From: a virus | Direction: 5' to 3' (one strand) | DNA length: 33,329 nucleotides | Virus record (IMG/VR): IMGVR_UViG_3300020213_000078 | Location: 1-33,329 of that record | Shown here: piece after piece, positions 3,663 to 33,329 of the stretch | Position numbering within the stretch: the first letter of the stretch is position 1 | How the letters are laid out: every line of letters starts with the position of its first letter | Notes under the pieces: generated by a model | Told to the model about the DNA's origin: nothing | The model's database searches: none | The model's input: only the letters and a program-made list of their open reading frames with translations | Program-made: the position numbers and the translations under genes

Positions 3663-4151
3663 TTATTTAGGAAGCCAATCGATAAGAATTTCGATAGTTC
3701 CAGCAGCCAGAGTGTCCATGTCAGGACTGTTACCCCAGTCTACTTTCAATGCGATGTTACCATTAGCGCCTACTGCGATTTTTGTTTCCAAAGTTGAAGC
3801 AGTTAAACCGGTTGAAACTTGGTCTTGACGCTCAACCAAAGTGTTAGAAGCTGAGTAGCAGCGAGCTACCATGTTCAAAACGCTTCTAGCTTGGCCGCCC
3901 ATATTGACGATAACTGCCATCGCATCAGCGCCCATCGATGTAGCATCGAAAGCTGCAAGCAAGAACTCGTTAGTCGTTCCAAGGAAGCTATCAATAACCG
4001 CTTGCGAAGCAATAGCATCGAAAGCAACTAAGCTTGCGCTATGAGCTGGGATAGCAATTACAGTTTTTGCGGCCGTTAGTTTGTAAAGAAGCTTCAGCGT
4101 TTGAGGCTGAGTCCTATCCAATTGGTCATTGTATAATGCTAAATCTCGCAT
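3663..4151 (-). CDS. Virion structural protein candidate (162 aa)
   Basis: I chose the ATG at 4151 (MRDLALYNDQ) because AAAGGA precedes it at good spacing. A longer upstream reading would overlap the scaffold gene end. The product is Ala/Val rich with no membrane segment and lies between scaffold and coat, where head decoration or completion proteins are often encoded. Its C-terminal 30 residues (GNIALKVDWGNSPD...GTIEILIDWLPK) resemble the end of the 126-residue product at 5210-5590 (GKLAVKVTYGSTPT...ALEVHLFFYN), suggesting that the two are paralogues. Function is not otherwise recognised. Confidence 0.75.
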   Translation of the reverse strand: MRDLALYNDQLDRTQPQTLKLLYKLTAAKTVIAIPAHSASLVAFDAIASQAVIDSFLGTTNEFLLAAFDATSMGADAMAVIVNMGGQARSVLNMVARCYSASNTLVERQDQVSTGLTASTLETKIAVGANGNIALKVDWGNSPDMDTLAAGTIEILIDWLPK

Positions 4152-4164
4152 CGTCTTTTTTCCT

Positions 4165-5088
4165 TTATGCTTGTTTGATTCTTGAGTTGATCCACTCGTC
4201 AATTCCTAGCTTCTTCTTAGCCTGTGGAGCTTTCGCGTCCGAAGGTTTAGTACGAACTTTGGAACGATCAGAGAGGAGTTGATTTGCTTGGTACTCGGAG
4301 ATTCTTTTCACAATATCTAGTCCCAGAACTTGTACAAGCTCCGGGGTTTCGAGCTGTGGCAAAAACTCTTTGATATCTTCATGGATCGAGGAAACTGCTT
4401 TCTGAGAAGCTTTATCGGCTGGCAAAGATTCTTTCTTAGCATCCATCCTGGCCATCATCTCATCGATGATTCTGATGACTAGTCTCGGAGTGGGTTTTCT
4501 ACCCAAGGCTTTCAGAGCGTCCCCAACTTCCTTGTCGAGGTCTTCGTGGGCCTGCTTAAGAGTCGCTTCTTTTTCAACCTTAGCCCTCTTGTCGGCATCG
4601 TCCTTGTCTTTATCTTCTCGGTCTTTAAGCTTAGCCTCGAGTTCGCGTGCTCTAGCCTCGCCCGGATTTTGTCGCCTTAGTTCCTCTTCCTCAAGATCTC
4701 TGATCAAGAAATCTTCCATCAGCTCTTTGGCTTTCGCCTTGCCAAGCTTTTGGGTTAAGAAGGATAGATCACCAGCTTCCAAAGCCTGTTGAACTTGCTG
4801 AACGGATTTTTCTTTCTGAGAAGCTTCTTGGAAACGTCGGTCAGATGCTTGTCTGATCTGATAGTCCCGCACTAGCGTCTCGTAATCGATTTCTACGTCC
4901 TTGCCGTCAACCTTTACCTTGTGTTTAGTTCCCATAAACGGATTCGATGACTCGCCTTCTTTCGATGGTTGAGCTTTCGTTGGTGTCTGTACTTGCACTT
5001 TGGGAGTGGGTACATACTCGCGTTTTTGGTTGCCAGAAATAGCGCCAGGAGCACTAGCGCCCCCAGCAGCGTTCGCTGCATCAGACAT
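4165..5088 (-). CDS. Capsid scaffolding protein
   Basis: The product has 307 residues and is highly charged, with a long predicted coiled coil (about residues 90-190, dense in K, E, D, R and Q), an N-terminal low-complexity region (Ala/Gly/Pro), and a basic helical C-terminus. This is the classic profile of phage scaffolding proteins, which template procapsid assembly and bind the coat through a basic C-terminal helix. It sits between the terminase genes and the coat gene. The start ATG follows GAGGC. About 120 untranslated bases separate it from the upstream gene; I see no convincing promoter there, only a weak TTGTAG/TATAAG pair with a 15-base spacer. Confidence 0.8.
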   Translation of the reverse strand: MSDAANAAGGASAPGAISGNQKREYVPTPKVQVQTPTKAQPSKEGESSNPFMGTKHKVKVDGKDVEIDYETLVRDYQIRQASDRRFQEASQKEKSVQQVQQALEAGDLSFLTQKLGKAKAKELMEDFLIRDLEEEELRRQNPGEARARELEAKLKDREDKDKDDADKRAKVEKEATLKQAHEDLDKEVGDALKALGRKPTPRLVIRIIDEMMARMDAKKESLPADKASQKAVSSIHEDIKEFLPQLETPELVQVLGLDIVKRISEYQANQLLSDRSKVRTKPSDAKAPQAKKKLGIDEWINSRIKQA

Positions 5089-5209
5089 TAAGTGCCTCGC
5101 CGTTATTGAGGGTAGAGGTTATGAATTCATATGATTGGTATAAGGAGAACTTATAGTAACTTTAACACAACTACAAGGAACCGTGACACGAGAGGAAGAA
5201 TTTGCGCGC

Positions 5210-5590
5210 CTAGTTATAGAAAAACAGATGAACTTCCAGCGCCTCGGTTGGTGTCGGAGTCGATCCGTAAGTCACCTTAACGGCTAGCTTACCTTGGGAG
5301 TCGTACCACCAACCAAAACTTGTAGAAGTCTCGCCCTGTTTCACTATCCTCATGACCTGAGCCGCGGTCACATGCCCTGAAACTTGAATGATCTGCTCAG
5401 TGTCATGCTTAAGATTTACTATCTTGATTTCGCCTGCGAGGTTGTCGGCAAGAGTCACCCCATTCTTTAGCGTTCTGATCACTTCTTCTACGAACGTCCC
5501 CATATACTGAAAGAAGTCTGGGATCTTTTGCCCAACTTCAGTTGCTAGATATTTTGAGATTTCCAGAAGCCTTGAGATTGTAATTTTCAT
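5210..5590 (-). CDS. Structural protein candidate (126 aa)
   Basis: The product has 126 residues, starting at an ATG that overlaps the stop of the preceding 55-codon gene (ATGA). The N-terminal third is helical (SRLLEISKYLATEVGQKIP) and the C-terminal half is beta-like, ending ALEVHLFFYN. That half resembles the C-terminus of the 162-residue protein next to the coat gene. Its location between terminase and scaffold suggests a head-related role. No family recognised. Confidence 0.75.
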   Translation of the reverse strand: MKITISRLLEISKYLATEVGQKIPDFFQYMGTFVEEVIRTLKNGVTLADNLAGEIKIVNLKHDTEQIIQVSGHVTAAQVMRIVKQGETSTSFGWWYDSQGKLAVKVTYGSTPTPTEALEVHLFFYN

Positions 5591-5754
5591 TTAAGATGCG
5601 CCTCTGCCATGTGGATTAGGGCCTGGAAATTAAGACTAGGGCAACACTCTTCAAGATATTTTTTCGCAATCTCAAGCTTTCGCTCTAAGACTTTAAGTTT
5701 CTCTGAAAAGCACGAGCACGTTCCGTGAGCTTTACATTTTTCTTCTGGTTCCAT
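5587..5754 (-). CDS. Small Cys-containing helical protein (55 aa)
   Basis: The ATG at 5754 (MEPEEKCKAHGTCSCFSEK) is preceded by GAAAGG and lies inside the terminase 3' end in another frame, overlapping it by 23 bases. The stop overlaps the next start as ATGA. The peptide has a C-x6-C-x-C cluster, then an amphipathic or coiled-coil helix (KLKVLERKLEIAKKYLEE) and one further Cys-Cys pair. A metal-binding or disulfide role is possible. A longer upstream reading in this frame is an artefact of the terminase gene. Confidence 0.6.
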   Translation of the reverse strand: MEPEEKCKAHGTCSCFSEKLKVLERKLEIAKKYLEECCPSLNFQALIHMAEAHLK

Positions 5755-7141
5755 TTCCAAAAACCTTTCTTTCAACTTGAGTAAATCCCTGCTTTGGTAG
5801 AATCGGTGCCGTTTTGTTGATAGTAGGCGGAATCCATTGCGTCTGAGAAGGATAGTTCCCGGCCGTATATGGCGAGGATCTATCGATATGTCTCGTGCCA
5901 TACATAAAAGCTGCGAATGCGTCCATGTGGCCCAGCGTATTCGATCTGCTAAAGTCTGTTCGATTTTTATTGAAAGTACCAGATCGACAAGTTTGCACAA
6001 GTAGCTCACATCTGGGATGAATCAAAACTTTGTTAGTGGTGAAACGATTCGCGGCCACATTGATGTTAGCTTCCCAGTCCTCTTTCGTAGGAGTTCTGAT
6101 TTCGATCCCGTGTGTCTGAGAGATATCGACCTGAATCTGTCCAGAGGCGTCCACAACGATCGACTTCACATCGTACTGAGATAGCCATCGCTCCTTAAGA
6201 TCATCCGTTATCTTCTTGGTCGATGTGTTGTGTGGCCACCAAATCTCATCGATCCAAAGATCCTTCGCTTGTAGAAAGTCATGACCGACTAGATAAGCTG
6301 CCGTGAAGTCCCTCACTCCGCCCCAATCTGCATATACTTCGAGGTTTACCGGACTTGGGATCTCAAAATCTCTAACGTGCAGCAGTTGATCGAAGTCGGG
6401 AGCTAGGACGATAGATCTGTCCCTGATGACTTGGCATAGATACTCACGCTTCCAGTCATCCGTATGAACTCCGCCAGCCCTTCTTACGCAAGCCTCGAAC
6501 TGTGCCGGAGTTAGGGCCGTATTATCGTAGATGGTATAGATATAAAGGCATCCGCTAAGCTCAGCCTTGGCCATCGTCTCGGTGATAAATGGGTGGTCTG
6601 GAATCTTTGGCGGGGTAGTAAGAAAGATCATCTTTCCGGCGTCCGAGTGGGTTAGTGCCGGACCAAGATCTGAGCGCATCGACTCCATATAACTATCCGG
6701 CGAACTATCGACCACTTCCTCGATGTAGATATTTTGGAGTGTCTTGCCCCTTTGAGAAGATGAGTTAACATCGAAGCCCCCGATTATTAACTCTGAGTTT
6801 CCTATGTACCATCTCTTCTCGGATTTGAGCCTTCTGACCACACCAGGAGGAGCGTCCTTTATGATCCTCTCAAGCCTCGGTACAACGATATCCCGGCATT
6901 GCTCATAAGTAGGCCCAACTATCATTATGGATCGATCTGGGAAGCGTAGGCAGTCTTCCACAGCCATAGCTACGCCCATGAACGATTTTCCAAATTGTCT
7001 GCTGCAAAGTACGACTGGTTCATCGACTTCGGGAGGTAAGTCTCGTATGGCATGATAGATCGGTAGTTGTTGGTCCCAGAGCTTGTACGATAAGCAGCCT
7101 GCATTCCACATGGCGTGAGCTGCATCGGTATAGCTAATCAT
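5732..7141 (-). CDS. terL: Terminase large subunit (ATPase and nuclease)
   Basis: The product has 469 residues, as usual for TerL. It shows an atypical Walker A, CSRQFGKSF (residues 46-54), of the SRQ-x-GKS type common in terminases, a Walker B-like NIYIEE (137-142) and a coupling motif FLTTPP (173-178). The C-terminal RNase H-like nuclease has acidic residues D272 (YADWG), D331 (VVDASG) and D407 (GHMDAFAAF). It pumps DNA into the procapsid through the portal and cuts the concatemer. The start overlaps the stop of the TerS candidate (ATGA). Packaging type (headful or site-specific) cannot be read from this. Confidence 0.95.
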   Translation of the reverse strand: MISYTDAAHAMWNAGCLSYKLWDQQLPIYHAIRDLPPEVDEPVVLCSRQFGKSFMGVAMAVEDCLRFPDRSIMIVGPTYEQCRDIVVPRLERIIKDAPPGVVRRLKSEKRWYIGNSELIIGGFDVNSSSQRGKTLQNIYIEEVVDSSPDSYMESMRSDLGPALTHSDAGKMIFLTTPPKIPDHPFITETMAKAELSGCLYIYTIYDNTALTPAQFEACVRRAGGVHTDDWKREYLCQVIRDRSIVLAPDFDQLLHVRDFEIPSPVNLEVYADWGGVRDFTAAYLVGHDFLQAKDLWIDEIWWPHNTSTKKITDDLKERWLSQYDVKSIVVDASGQIQVDISQTHGIEIRTPTKEDWEANINVAANRFTTNKVLIHPRCELLVQTCRSGTFNKNRTDFSRSNTLGHMDAFAAFMYGTRHIDRSSPYTAGNYPSQTQWIPPTINKTAPILPKQGFTQVERKVFGNGTRRKM

Positions 7142-8773: not shown

Positions 8774-8832
8774 GTTTGCTCCTCTAAATTTGATAATTCG
8801 CGTAGTCGTTCAAGTGTCGTAGTCTCGATCAT
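8770..8832 (-). CDS. 20-residue coupling peptide candidate
   Basis: This tiny frame (MIETTTLERLRELSNLEEQT) starts at an ATG overlapping the stop of the upstream gene and ends in a TGA overlapping the next ATG, so it exactly bridges a 55-base gap with ATGA overlaps at both ends. It carries GAGGAG near its end that serves the next gene. It could be a real microprotein (one amphipathic helix) or a translational relay that keeps ribosomes moving along the operon. Confidence 0.4.
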   Translation of the reverse strand: MIETTTLERLRELSNLEEQT

Positions 8833-9074
8833 TCCAAGTTCTCCCGAACGCGACAAATAAATTCACCTTCCACATTGTGTTTATCGGGCAGTGCTTGAAT
8901 AGTCCCATCTGGCATTTTGTAAAGCATGAAATCCCTTGGCTTAGGCTCAACTTCCCAATCAGCTAAAATCTCATCGTAACGGAAAAAATCAGTGTTTTTG
9001 GCCACGATCCAAGCATGACCCGATCCAATTACCCTATGCCTTTTCCCCGATTTCAAAGCTTCTATCAAAGTCAT
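8829..9074 (-). CDS. DUF2829/Tad2-like small protein (81 aa)
   Basis: The product has 81 residues. The N-terminus MTLIEALKSGKRHRV and the EILADWEVE motif (around residues 35-43) match the pattern of the DUF2829 family (xxxEALxxGKxxxR...DxLAxDWE). Thoeris anti-defence protein Tad2, which sequesters a cyclic-ADP-ribose isomer signal, belongs to that family. The match is by eye and partial: the protein is near family length but diverges in the C-terminal half. It is in the phage accessory operon with ATGA overlaps on both sides. An anti-defence role is a hypothesis. Confidence 0.5.
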   Translation of the reverse strand: MTLIEALKSGKRHRVIGSGHAWIVAKNTDFFRYDEILADWEVEPKPRDFMLYKMPDGTIQALPDKHNVEGEFICRVRENLE

Positions 9075-9292
9075 TTCTCACCCATCATTTTTTCAATTTT
9101 ACGTCGCTTTTTGCAGCCTGAGCACTCGCCCTCATCCTCTAAGCAAGAGCATGGGACTTCTTCAAGCAGGTAGCTAAGCGCAGTCGCATAGTTTTTAGAA
9201 ACCTTTTCAAGCTCCTCGTTCCGAGCACGAAGGAATTTAATTTCTCGCGCTTGCATCAAGATTATTTCTTCATTTAGTTCGCAATCGTTCAT
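9071..9292 (-). CDS. Coiled-coil protein with Cys cluster (73 aa), copy A
   Basis: Residues 5-45 form a charged coiled coil. The C-terminal part has a C-S-C-x6-C-x2-C cluster (PCSCLEDEGECSGCKKRR), probably a metal site. The first 33 residues are nearly identical to those of the 59-residue protein at 10733-10912, so it belongs to the duplicated block. Its start overlaps the stop of the Ala-repeat gene (ATGA). Confidence 0.7.
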   Translation of the reverse strand: MNDCELNEEIILMQAREIKFLRARNEELEKVSKNYATALSYLLEEVPCSCLEDEGECSGCKKRRKIEKMMGEK

Positions 9293-10071
9293 TCCGCATT
9301 CCTCAGAAGTTCCAAAAGTTTCTCGGATTGAGCGATGTAGGCGATTGTTTTAGCAGCAGAAGCATAAGCGGCAGCATAAGCGGCAGCATAAGCGGCAGCA
9401 GCAGCAGCATAAGCAGCATCATAAGCAGCATCATAAGCAGCAGCAGCATAAGCGGCAGCATAAGCGGCAGCAGCAGCAGCATCATAAGCAGCATCATAAG
9501 CAGCATCATAAGCAGCATCAGCAGCATAAGCGGCAGCATAAGCGGCAGCAGCAGCATCAGCAGAAGCAGAAGCAGAAGCAGCATAAGCAGCAGCAGCAGC
9601 AGAAGCAGAAGCAGAAGCAGAAGCAGAAGCTCGTATTTGCCTCCACGCTACAGCGCCACCGCTTAATTCAATTCTCAGCGCATCGGCTACAAGATCGCAG
9701 CTAGGATGTCTTGAGCCGCACTGGCCACTATCAGTCATAAGGAAAATGAAGAAATGGGACTTTACATCCGATAAATCCGCGCCAACCGGAATCGCCTCTA
9801 AAAAACGAGTGGGCCATGTCATCGCTAAATCGTTCGGTATATGTTCAAAAATTCTATCTTCTAAATGGGCAATGGCAACAGGTATCCCCAACTCAGTTTC
9901 ATAAGCCATGTGATCGTTGCTATGCACTGTGCATCCCACAGCACACCCTTTCCCTAACTCCCAGTACGTTCCCTTTACGATCTCGTCTAGCCGCATGTGC
10001 TCTGCGACTCTGGCTAAGTATTTTTCTTTCACCGCTGAATCGTTATGAAATGCTCGCATTGGTTCTCTCAT
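9289..10071 (-). CDS. Ala-repeat protein with conserved N-terminal domain, copy A
   Basis: The product has 260 residues. Residues 1-147 are a conserved globular domain (MRAFHND...WELGKGCAVGCTVHSNDH...ETELGIP...LEDRIFE...IPVGADLS) containing Cys and His residues that could bind metal or act as a catalytic site. Residues 148-240 are a low-complexity tract of Ala with Ser, Tyr and Asp (AAYD units), predicted helical. A short C-terminal helix follows (AQSEKLLELLRNAE). I recall similar domain-plus-Ala-repeat proteins in other phages and bacteria, annotated only as hypothetical. The start overlaps the RHH stop (ATGA). A paralogue lies at 10909-11616. Confidence 0.8.
   Translation of the reverse strand: MREPMRAFHNDSAVKEKYLARVAEHMRLDEIVKGTYWELGKGCAVGCTVHSNDHMAYETELGIPVAIAHLEDRIFEHIPNDLAMTWPTRFLEAIPVGADLSDVKSHFFIFLMTDSGQCGSRHPSCDLVADALRIELSGGAVAWRQIRASASASASASAAAAAYAASASASADAAAAAYAAAYAADAAYDAAYDAAYDAAAAAAYAAAYAAAAYDAAYDAAYAAAAAAYAAAYAAAYASAAKTIAYIAQSEKLLELLRNAE
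9352..9630. repeat. GCA/GCT trinucleotide-type tract, copy A
   Basis: This is a 279-base run composed almost only of GCA, GCG, TAA, TCA and GAA triplets on the plus strand (GCT/GCC, TAT, GAT and TCT sense codons on the minus strand), with longer units such as GCAGCATAAGCG. It encodes the Ala-rich tract. Such CAG/CTG-type DNA slips readily in replication. All unit lengths are multiples of three, so expansion or contraction stays in frame. Confidence 0.9.
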
Positions 10072-10247
10072 TTCCGCGCCTTCTTCTTCTTATCCATGTC
10101 CGCAATCAAAAGCCCCTGAATGTACCTTGAGTACAAAATCTTCGACTTGAGGTATTTAGCCAAGTTTGGCGGTAGTGCGATGCTGAATCGAATGCATCTT
10201 TCTTTGTCCGTTTTCGGCGGTCTACCTGATTTTTTTAACTCGATCAT
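10068..10247 (-). CDS. Ribbon-helix-helix-like protein (59 aa), copy A
   Basis: The sequence begins MIELKKSGRPPKTDKERCI and continues RFSIALPPNLAKYLKSKI. The pattern (basic SGRPPK start, beta strand RFSIALP, then two helices) fits the ribbon-helix-helix DNA-binding fold of Arc/MetJ/CopG-type regulators. Start and stop both overlap neighbouring genes by ATGA. It is about 85 percent identical by eye to the protein at 11616-11807 and is a good candidate to bind the duplicated promoter upstream of each operon. Confidence 0.75.
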   Translation of the reverse strand: MIELKKSGRPPKTDKERCIRFSIALPPNLAKYLKSKILYSRYIQGLLIADMDKKKKARK

Positions 10248-10447
10248 TTTGTGTCCCCTTCGTTGCCGAAGAGTACGCTCATTAAACTCGCGCCGACAAT
10301 TGCGTCAATGCCGTCAATGCCGTTAAAATCACCGACTTCAATTTCGTATGCCGCATTGCTCAAGTTGACATTAGACAAGCAAGCGATATCCATTTTGCGC
10401 GTTACTTCTGCGATTTGCGCCTTGTACTCAACAGTTATCTTAATCAT
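10244..10447 (-). CDS. First gene of accessory operon A (67 aa)
   Basis: The sequence starts MIKITVEYKAQIAEVTRKMD and ends VLFGNEGDTK. It is a small protein without a recognised family. It is the first gene after promoter A, its ATG lying about 40 bases from the -10 box, and its stop overlaps the RHH start. It has no counterpart in operon B beyond the first few residues (MKIT), so the duplication replaced or exchanged this position. Confidence 0.7.
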   Translation of the reverse strand: MIKITVEYKAQIAEVTRKMDIACLSNVNLSNAAYEIEVGDFNGIDGIDAIVGASLMSVLFGNEGDTK

Positions 10448-10538
10448 TTTGTATCCCTTAGTTTGTTTGTTTCCCTGGCTACAAACGGAATATAAGTAAT
10501 ACCATAATTAAAGTCAAGTATTAAAGTAACACTTAAAC
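10445..10538. repeat. 94-bp duplicated promoter segment, copy A
   Basis: This segment is near-identical (two mismatches by eye) to 12339-12432. It begins exactly at the start codon of the first gene and covers the leader, the promoter and the region upstream of it. Inside the leader GTTTGT and ACAAAC (10465-10470 and 10481-10486) form an inverted repeat with a ten-base loop, a possible operator or leader hairpin. Confidence 0.9.
10489..10517 (-). promoter_or_regulatory. Promoter of accessory operon A
   Basis: On the minus strand TTGACT (10517-10512), a 17-base spacer and TATATT (10494-10489) match a strong sigma-70 promoter with five of six bases in each box. Related AT-rich words (TACTTTAATAC, GACTTTAATTA, GTATTACTT) surround it and may be operator half-sites for the RHH proteins. 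It drives the genes from 10447 leftward. Confidence 0.8.
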
Positions 10539-10565
10539 AGCGCGGCCGTTCTTGCGCGTTGTCGG

Positions 10566-10736
10566 CTAGCCCCCTAGCCTAACCTCAATCGCCCTCGTAG
10601 TCATCGCGCTAAGCGCAACCAGTATACGTTTTAGTTCGTCCTTGAGTTGCTCGCATTCCGCCAAAAGCCTGCTCGATGTTTCTAGCTCCCGATGATACTG
10701 CTCGCTCAATTCTCCGCATCGTTCGCAATCGCTCAT
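10566..10736 (-). CDS. Coiled-coil protein (56 aa), last gene of operon B
   Basis: The product has 56 residues starting MSDCERCGELSEQYHRELE. It has a C-x2-C pair near the N-terminus followed by a coiled coil to about residue 40. The start overlaps the preceding stop (ATGA). The opening resembles that of its upstream neighbour (MNDCELNEE), suggesting an old tandem duplication. After its stop a GGCTAG/CTAGCC stem is present without a T run. Confidence 0.65.
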   Translation of the reverse strand: MSDCERCGELSEQYHRELETSSRLLAECEQLKDELKRILVALSAMTTRAIEVRLGG

Positions 10737-10912
10737 CTATCTAACTCCGCTAGTGCGGTCTGTAGATAAAGCATGTTTGATGTGGATGAAACAGTGAGAG
10801 CAATGCGGGACTCCTTCGCCACTTTTTCCAGCTTTTCGTTTCGAGCACGAAGGGTTTTAATTTCTCGCGCTTGCATTAAGATTATTTCTTCATTTAGTTC
10901 GCAATCGTTCAT
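10733..10912 (-). CDS. Coiled-coil protein (59 aa), copy B
   Basis: The product has 59 residues. Residues 1-33 (MNDCELNEEIILMQAREIK and onward) are nearly identical to the 73-residue protein at 9071-9292, but the C-terminal half differs and lacks the Cys cluster. The coding overlap with the Ala-repeat gene upstream (ATGA) is conserved between copies, which shows that the whole gene string was duplicated and then diverged at its 3' side. Confidence 0.7.
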   Translation of the reverse strand: MNDCELNEEIILMQAREIKTLRARNEKLEKVAKESRIALTVSSTSNMLYLQTALAELDR

Positions 10913-11616
10913 TCCGCATTCCTCAGAAGTTCCAAAAGTTTCTCGGATTGAGCGATGTGGGCGTTTGTTTTAGCAGCAGTAGCAGCAGCATAAGCAGCAG
11001 CATAAGCGGCAGCATAAGCGGCAGCAGCATAAGCAGCATCAGCAGCAGCAGCAGAAGCAGCAGCAGCATAAGCAGCATAAGCAGCAGCAGCAGCATCAGC
11101 AGAAGCAGAAGCATAAGCAGCATAAGCAGCATAAGCAGAAGCAGCAGAAGCAGAAGCAGAAGCGGAAGCAGAAGCTCGTATTTGTCTCCACGCTACAGCG
11201 CCACCGCTTAATTCAATTCTCAGCGCATCGGCGACAAGAGCACAACTAGGATGCCTTGAACCGCACTGGCTACTATCAGTCATAAGGAAAATGAAGAAAT
11301 GGGACTTTACATCCGATAAATCCGCGCCAACCGGAATCGCCTCTAAAAAACGAGTGGGCCATGTCATCGCCAATTCGTTTGGCAGGCCTTCAAAAATTCT
11401 ATCTTCTAAATGTGCAATGGCGGCGGGTATCCCCAACTCAGTTTCATAAGCAGAATGATCGTTGCTGTGTACTGTGCATCCCACCGCGCAACCTTTCCCT
11501 AACTCCCAATACTCACCCTTTATAATCTCATCTAGCCGCATGTGCTCTGCGACTCGACTAAGGTATTTTTCTTTAACTGCCGCATCATTATGAAATGCTC
11601 TCATCAAAGCCCCCAT
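10909..11616 (-). CDS. Ala-repeat protein with conserved N-terminal domain, copy B
   Basis: The product has 235 residues. The 147-residue N-terminal domain is about 90 percent identical by eye to copy A, keeping GKGCAVGCTVHSNDH, ETELGIP, LEDRIFE, IPVGADLSDVKSHFF and the Cys pair in QCGSRHPSC. The Ala/Ser/Tyr/Asp tract (148-215) is shorter and arranged differently, while the C-terminal helix is the same. Purifying selection on the ends combined with a fluid middle fits a structural or linker function for the tract. The start overlaps the RHH stop as TAATG. Confidence 0.8.
   Translation of the reverse strand: MGALMRAFHNDAAVKEKYLSRVAEHMRLDEIIKGEYWELGKGCAVGCTVHSNDHSAYETELGIPAAIAHLEDRIFEGLPNELAMTWPTRFLEAIPVGADLSDVKSHFFIFLMTDSSQCGSRHPSCALVADALRIELSGGAVAWRQIRASASASASASAASAYAAYAAYASASADAAAAAYAAYAAAASAAAADAAYAAAAYAAAYAAAYAAATAAKTNAHIAQSEKLLELLRNAE
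10972..11175. repeat. GCA/GCT trinucleotide-type tract, copy B
   Basis: This is a 204-base counterpart of the tract in copy A, with the same triplets but a different order and 75 bases less. The flanking coding sequence is nearly identical in both copies, so the length change is confined to the repeat. Confidence 0.9.
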
Positions 11617-11807
11617 TATTTCTGCCTAACCTTACTAACGCCCTTCTTCTTATCCATGTCCTCAGTCAAGAGCCCCTGAATGTACCTTGAGTACAGAAGC
11701 TTCGATTTCAGATATCTAGCTAGGTTTGGCGGTAGTGCGATGCTAAAGCGAATGCATCTTTCTTTGTGTGGCTTAGGCGGTCTACCTGATTTTTTTAACT
11801 CGATCAT
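11616..11807 (-). CDS. Ribbon-helix-helix-like protein (63 aa), copy B
   Basis: The sequence starts MIELKKSGRPPKPHKERCI, with the same strand-helix-helix pattern as copy A plus a basic C-terminal extension (DKKKGVSKVRQK). It overlaps the next start as TAATG. The start is supported by alignment with copy A. The frame stays open 24 codons further upstream, so a longer or frameshift-joined product is possible. Predicted DNA-binding regulator of the duplicated promoters. Confidence 0.75.
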   Translation of the reverse strand: MIELKKSGRPPKPHKERCIRFSIALPPNLARYLKSKLLYSRYIQGLLTEDMDKKKGVSKVRQK

Positions 11808-11848
11808 TTTGTGTTCCCCTTCAATGCTGATATTGCCGTTGATCTTGC

Positions 11849-11947
11849 CTACCGTAACCGTTTCGGGGTATTCACCTCTTTACCGCAATAAATACAGCGT
11901 CCTATTTTTCCCCCGACGCCCCTCCATGGGACACACGCACGTTTCAT
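11849..11947 (-). CDS. 32-residue C-x2-C peptide candidate
   Basis: The frame starts at an ATG overlapping the upstream stop (ATGA) and reads MKRACVPWRGVGGKIGRCIY followed by CGKEVNTPKRLR. The CIYCGKEV motif is a typical zinc-knuckle half, but only one C-x2-C pair plus a lone Cys is present. A minus-one shift at the ACCCCG stretch would read on without a stop into the RHH gene. It may be a short real gene or a truncated relic. Confidence 0.4.
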   Translation of the reverse strand: MKRACVPWRGVGGKIGRCIYCGKEVNTPKRLR

Positions 11948-12159
11948 CGTCGCACCTTTCCGGCAAGCTTCTTTTTGAAATATTCCCTAGCGATAGGCTC
12001 TGTAACATCCTCAATACAAAGACGCCATGTTGCCAAAATCCCACCTCTTACGTGACCAGCGTAGTTTCTAGCCAGGACATACACAGCAAACGTACCGTTA
12101 TCCCGCACGAGTCCGTAAGTTGTTCCAGCCTGATTTTGTTCTACATTTATCATTTTCAT
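11944..12159 (-). CDS. Small hypothetical protein (71 aa)
   Basis: The sequence reads MKMINVEQNQAGTTYGLVRD onward, with a beta-rich middle (FAVYVLARNYAGHVRGG) and a basic helical end (REYFKKKLAGKVRR). Overlaps on both sides are ATGA. It is present only in operon B. No family recognised. Confidence 0.7.
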   Translation of the reverse strand: MKMINVEQNQAGTTYGLVRDNGTFAVYVLARNYAGHVRGGILATWRLCIEDVTEPIAREYFKKKLAGKVRR

Positions 12160-12341
12160 TTCGTTTGTTGCGCCTGTAGGTACTTATTCGCCTCTTCAAT
12201 AACGTCGCCTTCACCTAAACCTAGGGCAAAATTGACCGCTTCGACTTCTGGTAAGGACTGGAAACAATGCCAAGCCGCTGTGTGCCAAAGTTCTGCATTA
12301 CTTTTTTTTACTTTTGCTACAAGGCTCTTGGTGATTTTCAT
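12156..12341 (-). CDS. First gene of accessory operon B (61 aa)
   Basis: The sequence starts MKITKSLVAKVKKSNAELWH and is helical, with Trp and His near the middle and an acidic stretch (GLGEGDVIEEANKYL). It begins at the exact edge of the 94-bp duplicated promoter segment, as does the first gene of operon A. No family recognised. Confidence 0.7.
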   Translation of the reverse strand: MKITKSLVAKVKKSNAELWHTAAWHCFQSLPEVEAVNFALGLGEGDVIEEANKYLQAQQTK

Positions 12342-12432
12342 TTTGTATCCCTCAGTTTGTTTGTTTCCCTGGCTACAAACGGAATATAAGTAATACCATA
12401 ATTAAAGTCAGGTATTAAAGTAACACTTAAAC
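12339..12432. repeat. 94-bp duplicated promoter segment, copy B
   Basis: This is the counterpart of 10445-10538 with the same leader inverted repeat. One of the two mismatches falls in the -35 box and should make this copy weaker. Confidence 0.9.
12383..12411 (-). promoter_or_regulatory. Promoter of accessory operon B
   Basis: CTGACT (12411-12406), a 17-base spacer and TATATT (12388-12383) lie on the minus strand. The first base of the -35 box departs from consensus relative to operon A. The surroundings are the same as in copy A, so both promoters probably respond to the same regulator. Confidence 0.75.
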
Positions 12433-12459
12433 GGCACGATTTTATCCGCGATTTCTGTT

Positions 12460-32183: not shown

Positions 32184-33329
32184 TTATGGTGTTACGCCTT
32201 GGATTCTAGCAATGATTGAAGTCCTACCAGCCGTAATCGTTACGTGCGCCCGGATGTAGCGATATCTTGCCGTGAGCTGAAAGAATGTTGAACTGTCCGC
32301 CGTTATATTTGCTGTCATCGAAGATATATCCAGCCAAGTAGCAGTAACCGCCGGATTCGGCGCGTCGTCGTTCGTTGATTGAAGCTTAACAACAGCCCCC
32401 GCTATTGATGTCGATGTGAAGGTATGGACACCAACCCCTTCGGCAGTGATATTTACAGCAGTCCCAACCAGTGCGTTCGCTAGACTTGTAGCCAGCTTAA
32501 TGCTGGCCGCATCTACTGAAATTACGAAATAATCAGTCGCAAGTGAGAGCCCAGTGGGTAGCGTAGTGGTAGTGGTTAGCTGGCCCTTTAAGCCAGTCGT
32601 GAGGCCGTGAGCAGGAATCGTAATAGCGTCAAGAACTAGATCAAGTTCCGTCCCTACTCCGGCAGTAGTTTCAGCGGTTGTAACCGTCCCGGCCGCCGAT
32701 TCAGCAGCATTTTTTGGAACCGGATTCGTTGTAACGCCATATGAAACCTGAGTCATGGTCATGGTGCCGTTAGCAGCCGCATCACTACTCGTAATAGCCG
32801 CTGTAAATCCCGTAAGATCATTAAAAGCAGTCTCGGCCCTAGCAGCTACATGCGCCGCTGTTGTGTCGCTTGATATATCGGCAAGGCCCTTATATGTCGC
32901 AGCAGTCCAAAGAACGCCCGAAGGGGCGACCGAAGCCACACCGCCAGTAGTTTGCACTCCCAAAATTCCGCCAGCAGTAGATTCATCGAAATTCTTAGGG
33001 ACAGGATTAACAGCAGGAGCTTTAAGAACCTGCGTCAAGGTCATGGTTCCATCAGCAGCAGTGTCGTTAGTAGTGATAGCCGTCGTGAAACCAGTAAGTG
33101 CGTTAAATGCGATTTCGAAAAGTGCTGCAACAGACGCGGCCGTGGTTGCCCCTGAAATATCGACCAGCGCCTTTCGGGTTGCGGCGGTCCAAAGAGCGCC
33201 AGCAGGTGTTACAAGAGCGCCCCCGGTTGTATCAGCAGCAATCGCATATTTAACTCCGGCCGTATCTTCTACGATAACAAAGTCTCCGTTATCAGTAGCG
33301 GCCTTCGCTTCGAAAGTAAGTGTCTGCAC
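32184..33329 (-). CDS. Virion-associated repeat protein, C-terminal part (continues at left end)
   Basis: The open frame enters at the right edge and is continuous with the gene starting at ATG 412 once the terminal repeat is collapsed, giving 473 residues. It holds two roughly 95-residue tandem repeats beginning P-x-G-x-LWTAAT (DIS..TTAA.VAA..E.AFN.LTGFT.AIT..D.AA.GTMT.TQV..). These are followed by the HGL...LPTGLS...TSLANALVGT beta module (residues about 322-402) and an Ig-like C-terminal segment. It lies in the late operon after the tail fibre. A tail or head decoration role is inferred. Confidence 0.8.
   Translation of the reverse strand: MQTLTFEAKAATDNGDFVIVEDTAGVKYAIAADTTGGALVTPAGALWTAATRKALVDISGATTAASVAALFEIAFNALTGFTTAITTNDTAADGTMTLTQVLKAPAVNPVPKNFDESTAGGILGVQTTGGVASVAPSGVLWTAATYKGLADISSDTTAAHVAARAETAFNDLTGFTAAITSSDAAANGTMTMTQVSYGVTTNPVPKNAAESAAGTVTTAETTAGVGTELDLVLDAITIPAHGLTTGLKGQLTTTTTLPTGLSLATDYFVISVDAASIKLATSLANALVGTAVNITAEGVGVHTFTSTSIAGAVVKLQSTNDDAPNPAVTATWLDISSMTANITADSSTFFQLTARYRYIRAHVTITAGRTSIIARIQGVTP
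33194..33329. repeat. Right terminal redundancy (circular overlap)
   Basis: This is the counterpart of the first 136 bases. Joining the ends here restores a 474-codon frame (473 residues plus stop). The single mismatch makes a Thr-Pro-Ala-Gly reading here and Thr-Pro-Ser-Gly at the left end. A true short direct terminal repeat cannot be excluded from sequence alone. Confidence 0.9.

Follow-up and report, generated by a model that had tools for sequence, protein, structure and literature searches.

A duplicated, probably accessory phage unit encodes a Cys/His head domain joined to an alanine-rich tail of single codon register

Background

Imm-5-like Ala-repeat proteins, also annotated as 'putative immunity protein', consist of a short helical domain followed by an Ala-rich helical repeat, and phage accessory proteins with a hypervariable repeat region are known in general. 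Here, a 33,329-nucleotide (nt) stretch of viral DNA was analysed (IMG/VR record IMGVR_UViG_3300020213_000078, positions 1 to 33,329; the window), which encodes two copies of a protein, hereafter the core protein, in which a head domain with conserved Cys and His residues is followed by an Ala/Ser/Tyr/Asp tail and a C-terminal cap. A preliminary description of this DNA had placed the protein in an accessory cassette of several genes and treated the tail as a minor detail; across phages, however, only the core protein is conserved, and the tail is what makes it remarkable.

No Imm-5-like Pfam match was found among 59 core family members at E ≤ 0.1, and Pfam and NCBIfam returned no usable match for the family, only low-complexity or chance ones. 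A sequence search of solved structures yielded nothing meaningful, and the best Foldseek match in the PDB (E = 4.5) was rejected; no solved fold matches the head. In BFVD, Foldseek matched A0A6J5QCR4, an uncharacterised protein of an uncultured Caudovirales phage (E = 4.7e-9, 28% identity, template modelling score approximately 0.6). For the family phrog_3416 (function unassigned, 248 positions), 15 of 67 relatives gave a weak match, the best at E = 4e-7, while the window head gave none and, in copy B, only the tail did (E = 0.22).

The named phages with core relatives were 11 Xanthomonas phages among 50,697 phage records. These relatives are distant, unannotated or hypothetical proteins (phiXaf18, KPhi1 and XapPhi1-6) with 28–31% identity over the head, in which the CxxxC motif is kept and followed by a Ser/Ala/Arg/Glu/Trp-type tail. 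The relative in phiXaf18 adjoins a VapE-type gene, and the KPhi1 paper (PMC6123377) does not discuss the relative in that phage. A hypothetical protein of Sphingomonas/Novosphingobium plasmids shows 30–35% identity to the head over approximately 120 amino acids (aa) and keeps H25, but lacks C43, C47 and H54 as well as the Ala repeat tail. No paper on such tails was found among open-access papers. As far as these searches show, a helical arm that is locked to one codon register and has been re-created repeatedly on a Cys/His head has not been described before.

Results and discussion

Codon register of the tail

The two core genes and their parts are located as follows:

9289-10071, minus strand: core protein copy A, 260 aa, with head, Ala/Ser/Tyr/Asp tail and C-terminal cap (SEKLLELLRNAE)
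9631-10071, minus strand: head domain of copy A, residues 1-147
9352-9630, minus strand: tail of copy A
10909-11616, minus strand: core protein copy B, 235 aa, with a shorter tail
10972-11175, minus strand: tail of copy B

Both copies fuse the conserved Cys/His domain to the repeat, as had been described, and their heads are 90% identical. Translation of copy A may in fact begin at the internal Met5, where relatives start (MRAFHN). With the head as query, the family was found on at least 162 viral contigs, 80 of which were kept. In the window, the codons GCT, TCT, TAT and GAT account for 84 of 91 tail codons in copy A and 62 of 66 in copy B, and this uniformity recurs in the relatives: in 56 of 73 tails, a single third base is found in at least 90% of the Ala codons, and in 37 tails in all of them. 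The median share of the top Ala third base was 1.0 in tails versus 0.44 in the corresponding heads, and 66 of the 73 tails were more uniform than a null built from the third bases of their own heads (500 draws, p < 0.01). The register base also ends most of the other tail codons (1095 of 1438 non-Ala codons). The register used in a tail does not follow the codon bias of its gene.

All four registers, T, C, G and A (GCT, GCC, GCG and GCA), are in use and scattered over the head tree. On this tree, which has few columns and many open forks, at least 22 register changes are required (minimum possible 3, shuffled 29.2), and the starred branches alone force 4 or 5 changes per common register. The single-register Ala codons and the scatter of registers over the head tree together indicate that the tails arose recently by expansion of a single GCN triplet and have been rebuilt many times. 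A tail of another kind occurs in the related locus L091 (3006-3818), where Tyr-Ala and Ser-Ala dipeptides are combined with GCA Ala codons, the third base of which is impossible for a Tyr codon; this tail was probably built from a two-codon unit, as an exception to the single-register rule.

Residue content of the tail

Tyr or Trp, each two mutations away from Ala, is present in 71 of the 73 tails. In T- and C-register tails, no non-Ala residue is commoner than Tyr (TAT/TAC), which occurs in 29 of 35, while 11 of 12 G-register tails contain Trp (TGG) (Tyr versus Trp by register, Fisher p = 1e-6). Since TAG and TAA are stops, no Tyr can occur in the G or A register, and Trp is used instead. The one-step residues Pro and Gly are scarce, with 8 Pro and 19 Gly among 2645 register-matching codons (T, C and G registers combined). 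Furthermore, bulky or charged residues are 3 or 4 positions apart in 53% of steps versus 24% in shuffles, a spacing close to one helical turn, which supports a helix without proving it.

Slippage and drift alone would favour the one-step residues Asp/Glu, Ser, Thr, Val, Gly and Pro, and the finding of Tyr and Trp instead points to selection on the arm. The tail could nevertheless be neutral, an unconstrained microsatellite on a functional head that is helical only because Ala is, and slippage does yield both single-register codons and an indel-rich turnover. Such a tail would not be expected to recruit the two-step residues Tyr and Trp time and again in different registers, to exclude Pro and Gly almost entirely from single-register tails, to hold the spacing of 3 or 4 residues or to be followed by a conserved cap, and we consider neutrality distinctly improbable. 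An antifreeze-like or DNA-mimic Ala helix was also considered and rejected, as the tails are not uniformly acidic and have no tie to cold.

Turnover of the tail

Tail length in complete members ranges from 25 to 154 residues, and the tails of the window pair have 95 and 70 residues. In locus L086, two copies 1.8 kb apart have DNA-identical heads (360/360 nt) and caps (60/60 nt), while their tails, of 47 versus 56 residues, differ by in-frame indels; one copy lies near a contig end, and an assembly effect is possible. Across loci, heads with 95% identity carry tails of 94 versus 42 and 99 versus 39 residues. Turnover of the tails is in frame and outpaces that of the head, with selection favouring a decorated helix. 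Two core copies were found in 5 of 50 other records, and the window pair fits recurrent duplication with tail divergence. In one phage, L005, two neighbouring family members (4016-4639 and 4992-5963) carry a Tyr-Ala-Ser and a Trp/Arg/Ser/Ala tail, respectively, on well-diverged heads.

Predicted structure of the tail

The AlphaFold2 model of copy A (predicted local distance difference test, pLDDT, 81.9; predicted template modelling score 0.72) contains helices at residues 143-198 and 204-257 and a cap with a pLDDT of 94-97. The model of the Trp/Ser/Glu/Arg tail of L045 (pLDDT 75.8) has helices at 143-210 and 217-287. In both models, which are of different tail types, a short turn connects two long helices, and cap pLDDT values are 85-97. 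On the basis of these models and the conserved cap, the tail is predicted to form an antiparallel helical hairpin, and the C-terminal cap probably packs against the head. The tails of L042, L046 and L067 consist of a Leu-rich three-residue A[DY][LR] repeat, in the C register in L042 and L046, and an arm of this type may fold differently from the Ala arms.

Several observations weigh against a selected, single-triplet hairpin. Model confidence is low in the middle of the tail (pLDDT 45-70), and AlphaFold tends to render any Ala-rich stretch helical. The same spacing of residues would arise from DNA repeats with units of 9 and 12 nt, which may partly explain the periodicity, and 17 of the 73 tails are mixed in register.

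Head domain

The residues H25, G42, C43, G46, C47 and E76 are invariant in 67 of 67 relatives, D29, G34 and D72 are kept in 66, and H54 is kept in 65, the two relatives that lack it carrying H50. Both window copies display H25, D29, GxGCAxGC and E76 of the 67-sequence alignment, as well as the single-register GCN tail (in the window GCT, with few GCC) and the KLLELL-like cap (SEKLLELLRNAE) behind it. Judged by this conservation, H25, C43, C47 and H54 likely form a metal site; the joint loss of C43, C47 and H54 in the Sphingomonas-type relatives is what would be expected if such a site had been lost. The head was modelled by AlphaFold2 as all-helical with a fall in confidence in the CxxxC loop, which could fit an absent ligand.

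A possible role for the arm

The best explanation as a whole, to which we assign a probability of about 0.5, is that of a duplicated accessory unit encoding a protein with a metal-site head, a rebuilt hairpin arm and an adaptor role. The conserved all-helical head, with its probable metal site, would do a constant job, while the Ala-rich arm would fold out and back as a two-helix hairpin whose cap packs against the head. The arm would be destroyed and rebuilt again and again as a single GCN triplet expands and contracts in frame, and selection would then place charged residues and the aromatic Tyr or Trp along the helix face, 3-4 positions apart. Expressed from its own putative sigma-70-type promoter, the protein would serve as an adaptor, its arm providing a reach or surface that can be adjusted rapidly for binding a host or phage partner that itself evolves fast. 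The anatomy and evolution of the core protein can be put forward with good confidence, the early role as an adaptor to a host or phage protein with low confidence.

A specific form of this explanation is an anti-host or counter-defence protein, for example an inhibitor or decoy, the arm of which evolves to escape or match host proteins. The early-type position near recombination and replication genes in several phages would suit such a function, as would the rapid tail turnover and the recurrent duplication with tail divergence, but known inhibitors were matched neither by sequence nor by fold, and we regard this form as rather unlikely.

A further, tentative reading, held at somewhat less than even odds, is a new diversification route. 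Here, expansion of a single GCN codon would re-create a hairpin arm on a metal-binding head, the genetic code would set the chemistry of the arm (Tyr/Asp for the T and C registers, Trp/Glu/Arg for G), and arm length and surface would outpace point mutation with the frame kept. If this is true, triplet expansion serves a large family of environmental phage proteins as a means of generating in-frame variation; its effect would resemble that of diversity-generating retroelements or on/off contingency loci, with a different mechanism. The same head with many independent arms would then offer natural replicates on the requirements of a newly made helical arm. The family also illustrates how such genes are missed: single-register tails resemble low-complexity noise, and in 21 of 82 cases the core open reading frame (ORF) is cut off where the contig stops.

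The duplicated unit

The other features of the locus are:

12338-12438, minus strand: operon B promoter/leader, CTGACT-17-TATATT
12156-12341, minus strand: operon B first gene, 61 aa, without counterpart in A
11944-12159, minus strand: operon B second gene, 71 aa, without counterpart in A
11616-11807, minus strand: RHH-like protein B, 63 aa, phrog_4223 match (E = 7.5e-4)
10733-10912, minus strand: coiled-coil-like gene B, 59 aa, C-terminus unlike A
10566-10736, minus strand: operon B distal gene, 56 aa
10444-10544, minus strand: operon A promoter/leader, TTGACT-17-TATATT
10244-10447, minus strand: operon A first gene, 67 aa, without counterpart in B
10068-10247, minus strand: RHH-like protein A, 59 aa, weak family support only
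9071-9292, minus strand: coiled-coil-like gene A, 73 aa
8829-9074, minus strand: operon A distal gene, 81 aa

Operon B thus runs on the minus strand from a promoter at approximately 12438 through the genes at 12156-12341 and 11944-12159, the RHH-like gene, core B and coil B to 10566-10736, and operon A from a promoter at approximately 10544 through 10244-10447, the RHH-like gene, core A and coil A to 8829-9074. The head-to-tail arrangement of two operons noted earlier reflects a real duplication, since self-BLAST of the window aligned 9201-10269 with 10821-11830 (82% over 1086 columns) and 10444-10544 with 12338-12438 (96%). The latter block is the promoter segment, which had rightly been called near-identical but measures 101 bp rather than 94 bp; a promoter repeat of such kind arose in 0 of 100 shuffles. 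A sigma-70-like hexamer pair, 17 nt apart, lies within the duplicated promoter/leader, and direct repeats ATTAAAGT with 13-nt spacing are present in both promoters.

Different genes surround the shared ones, as proposed, the first genes of A and B being without counterparts. The tandem duplication involves a transcription unit that is likely accessory in nature. Between the copies, the ratio of nonsynonymous to synonymous substitution rates (dN/dS) amounts to 0.13 in the head, 0.10 in the RHH-like gene and 0.09 in the shared part of the coil gene; all three common genes are under purifying selection, and the low ratios indicate that both copies have been maintained. With a dS of approximately 0.47-0.58 between the copies, the duplication of the operons is not very recent. 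The longest identical run in the head between the copies is 99 nt (permutation p approximately 1e-4), which suggests gene conversion.

The stop/start overlaps, previously given as the same throughout, differ between the operons: the junction of the RHH-like and core genes is a 4-nt overlap in A and a 1-nt overlap (TAATG) in B, and the gene preceding the RHH-like gene overlaps it in A and ends 136 nt upstream of it in B. The coil genes have their first approximately 33 codons in common and then diverge abruptly, the A gene ending Cys-rich (CSCLEDEGECSGCKKRR). The tails are also overlapped, in other frames and on the other strand, by long ORFs rich in Leu/Met and in Ser/Arg (9303-9584, minus; 9328-9666, plus; with equivalents in copy B); these are by-products of the GCN repeat and probably not genes.

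The preliminary description had read the locus as an autoregulated, selectable accessory or defence cassette, in which an RHH regulator, the core protein and a coiled coil would form a fixed three-gene unit with exchangeable cargo at its rim; a unit of this kind might be toxin-antitoxin-like or anti-phage. The operons' own promoters, their small overlapping genes, the RHH-like ORF directly before the core gene, the variable flanks and the presence of two copies are in keeping with this. The RHH label was weakly supported, as neither protein had a Pfam match and the matches to a NikR-type model (E = 0.098) and to phrog_4223 (function unassigned) were weak. The RHH-like and coil genes were found by BLAST beside the core in 0 of approximately 80 related loci, among which the other operon genes had no relatives either. 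No conserved partner of the core was found in these loci, where neighbour clusters span at most 4 loci. A direct scan of IMG/VR yielded one weak match for the RHH-like protein, unlinked to the core, and none for the coil protein, and RHH_1 genes occurred in 2 of 50 records, in neither of which they adjoin the core; a co-occurrence scan with phrog_4223 was uninformative, as its control gave no match. PADLOC models gave 0 matches for 10 proteins, and the operon genes, when scanned against Pfam, NCBIfam and PADLOC, returned low-complexity or chance matches only. On these grounds, neither a fixed three-gene unit with a variable rim nor an autoregulated defence locus is supported, and the cassette as a whole is improbable. 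What remains of the co-occurrence expected across phage genomes is the wide distribution of the core protein, whereas conservation of the RHH-like and coil genes is confined to the window phage.

Genomic neighbourhood and distribution

The recurring identified neighbours of the core gene in relatives are single-stranded DNA-annealing proteins, exonucleases, DnaB, DNA polymerase and ParB. In the window phage, DnaB-, RecT-, Gam- and RusA-like genes lie approximately 2-7 kb from the core genes, and the locus sits between the terminase-side genes and the RecT/DnaB module. Proximity to a recombination module is best described as a tendency. A fixed recombination-gene neighbour was rejected, as RecT, YqaJ or Sak4-type genes occur within approximately 7 kb in some records, not most, and so was temperate life as a common theme, with Phage_integrase in only 6 of 50 records.

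The same surroundings bear on whether the core protein could be a virion or scaffold component with an Ala-rich helical spacer. The tail weakly matches a tail-fibre PHROG (E = 0.004), a low-complexity match that is most likely compositional; the position of the locus, its own promoters and the predominance of DNA-metabolism genes among the identified neighbours in relatives argue against a structural role, which appears highly improbable.

Outside the viral contigs, core relatives were found on one genome contig, with 1 more weak match in 200 Chloroflexota genomes, and four alphaproteobacterial plasmids carry distant relatives; the peptide patterns of the genome scan differed slightly from those of the viral scan, so that viral versus bacterial counts are indicative only. 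The plasmid relative (L008, 4983-5867; L009, 3831-4718) stands in a conserved row of two TldD-like peptidases, a thioredoxin, the relative and an M3 peptidase, to which trxB is added in L009 and a TonB receptor and an ABC transporter in L008. This row is possibly a peptide-maturation cluster.

The two ends of the window, positions 1-136 and 33194-33329, repeat each other directly over 136 bp at 99.3% identity, and IMGVR_UViG_3300020213_000078 may accordingly represent a complete genome or one assembled as a circle; alternatively, the ends may hold a tandem repeat inside a single ORF. An internal repeat of 180 bp (32745-32924 and 33027-33206, 68%) lies in the same ORF as the terminal repeat.

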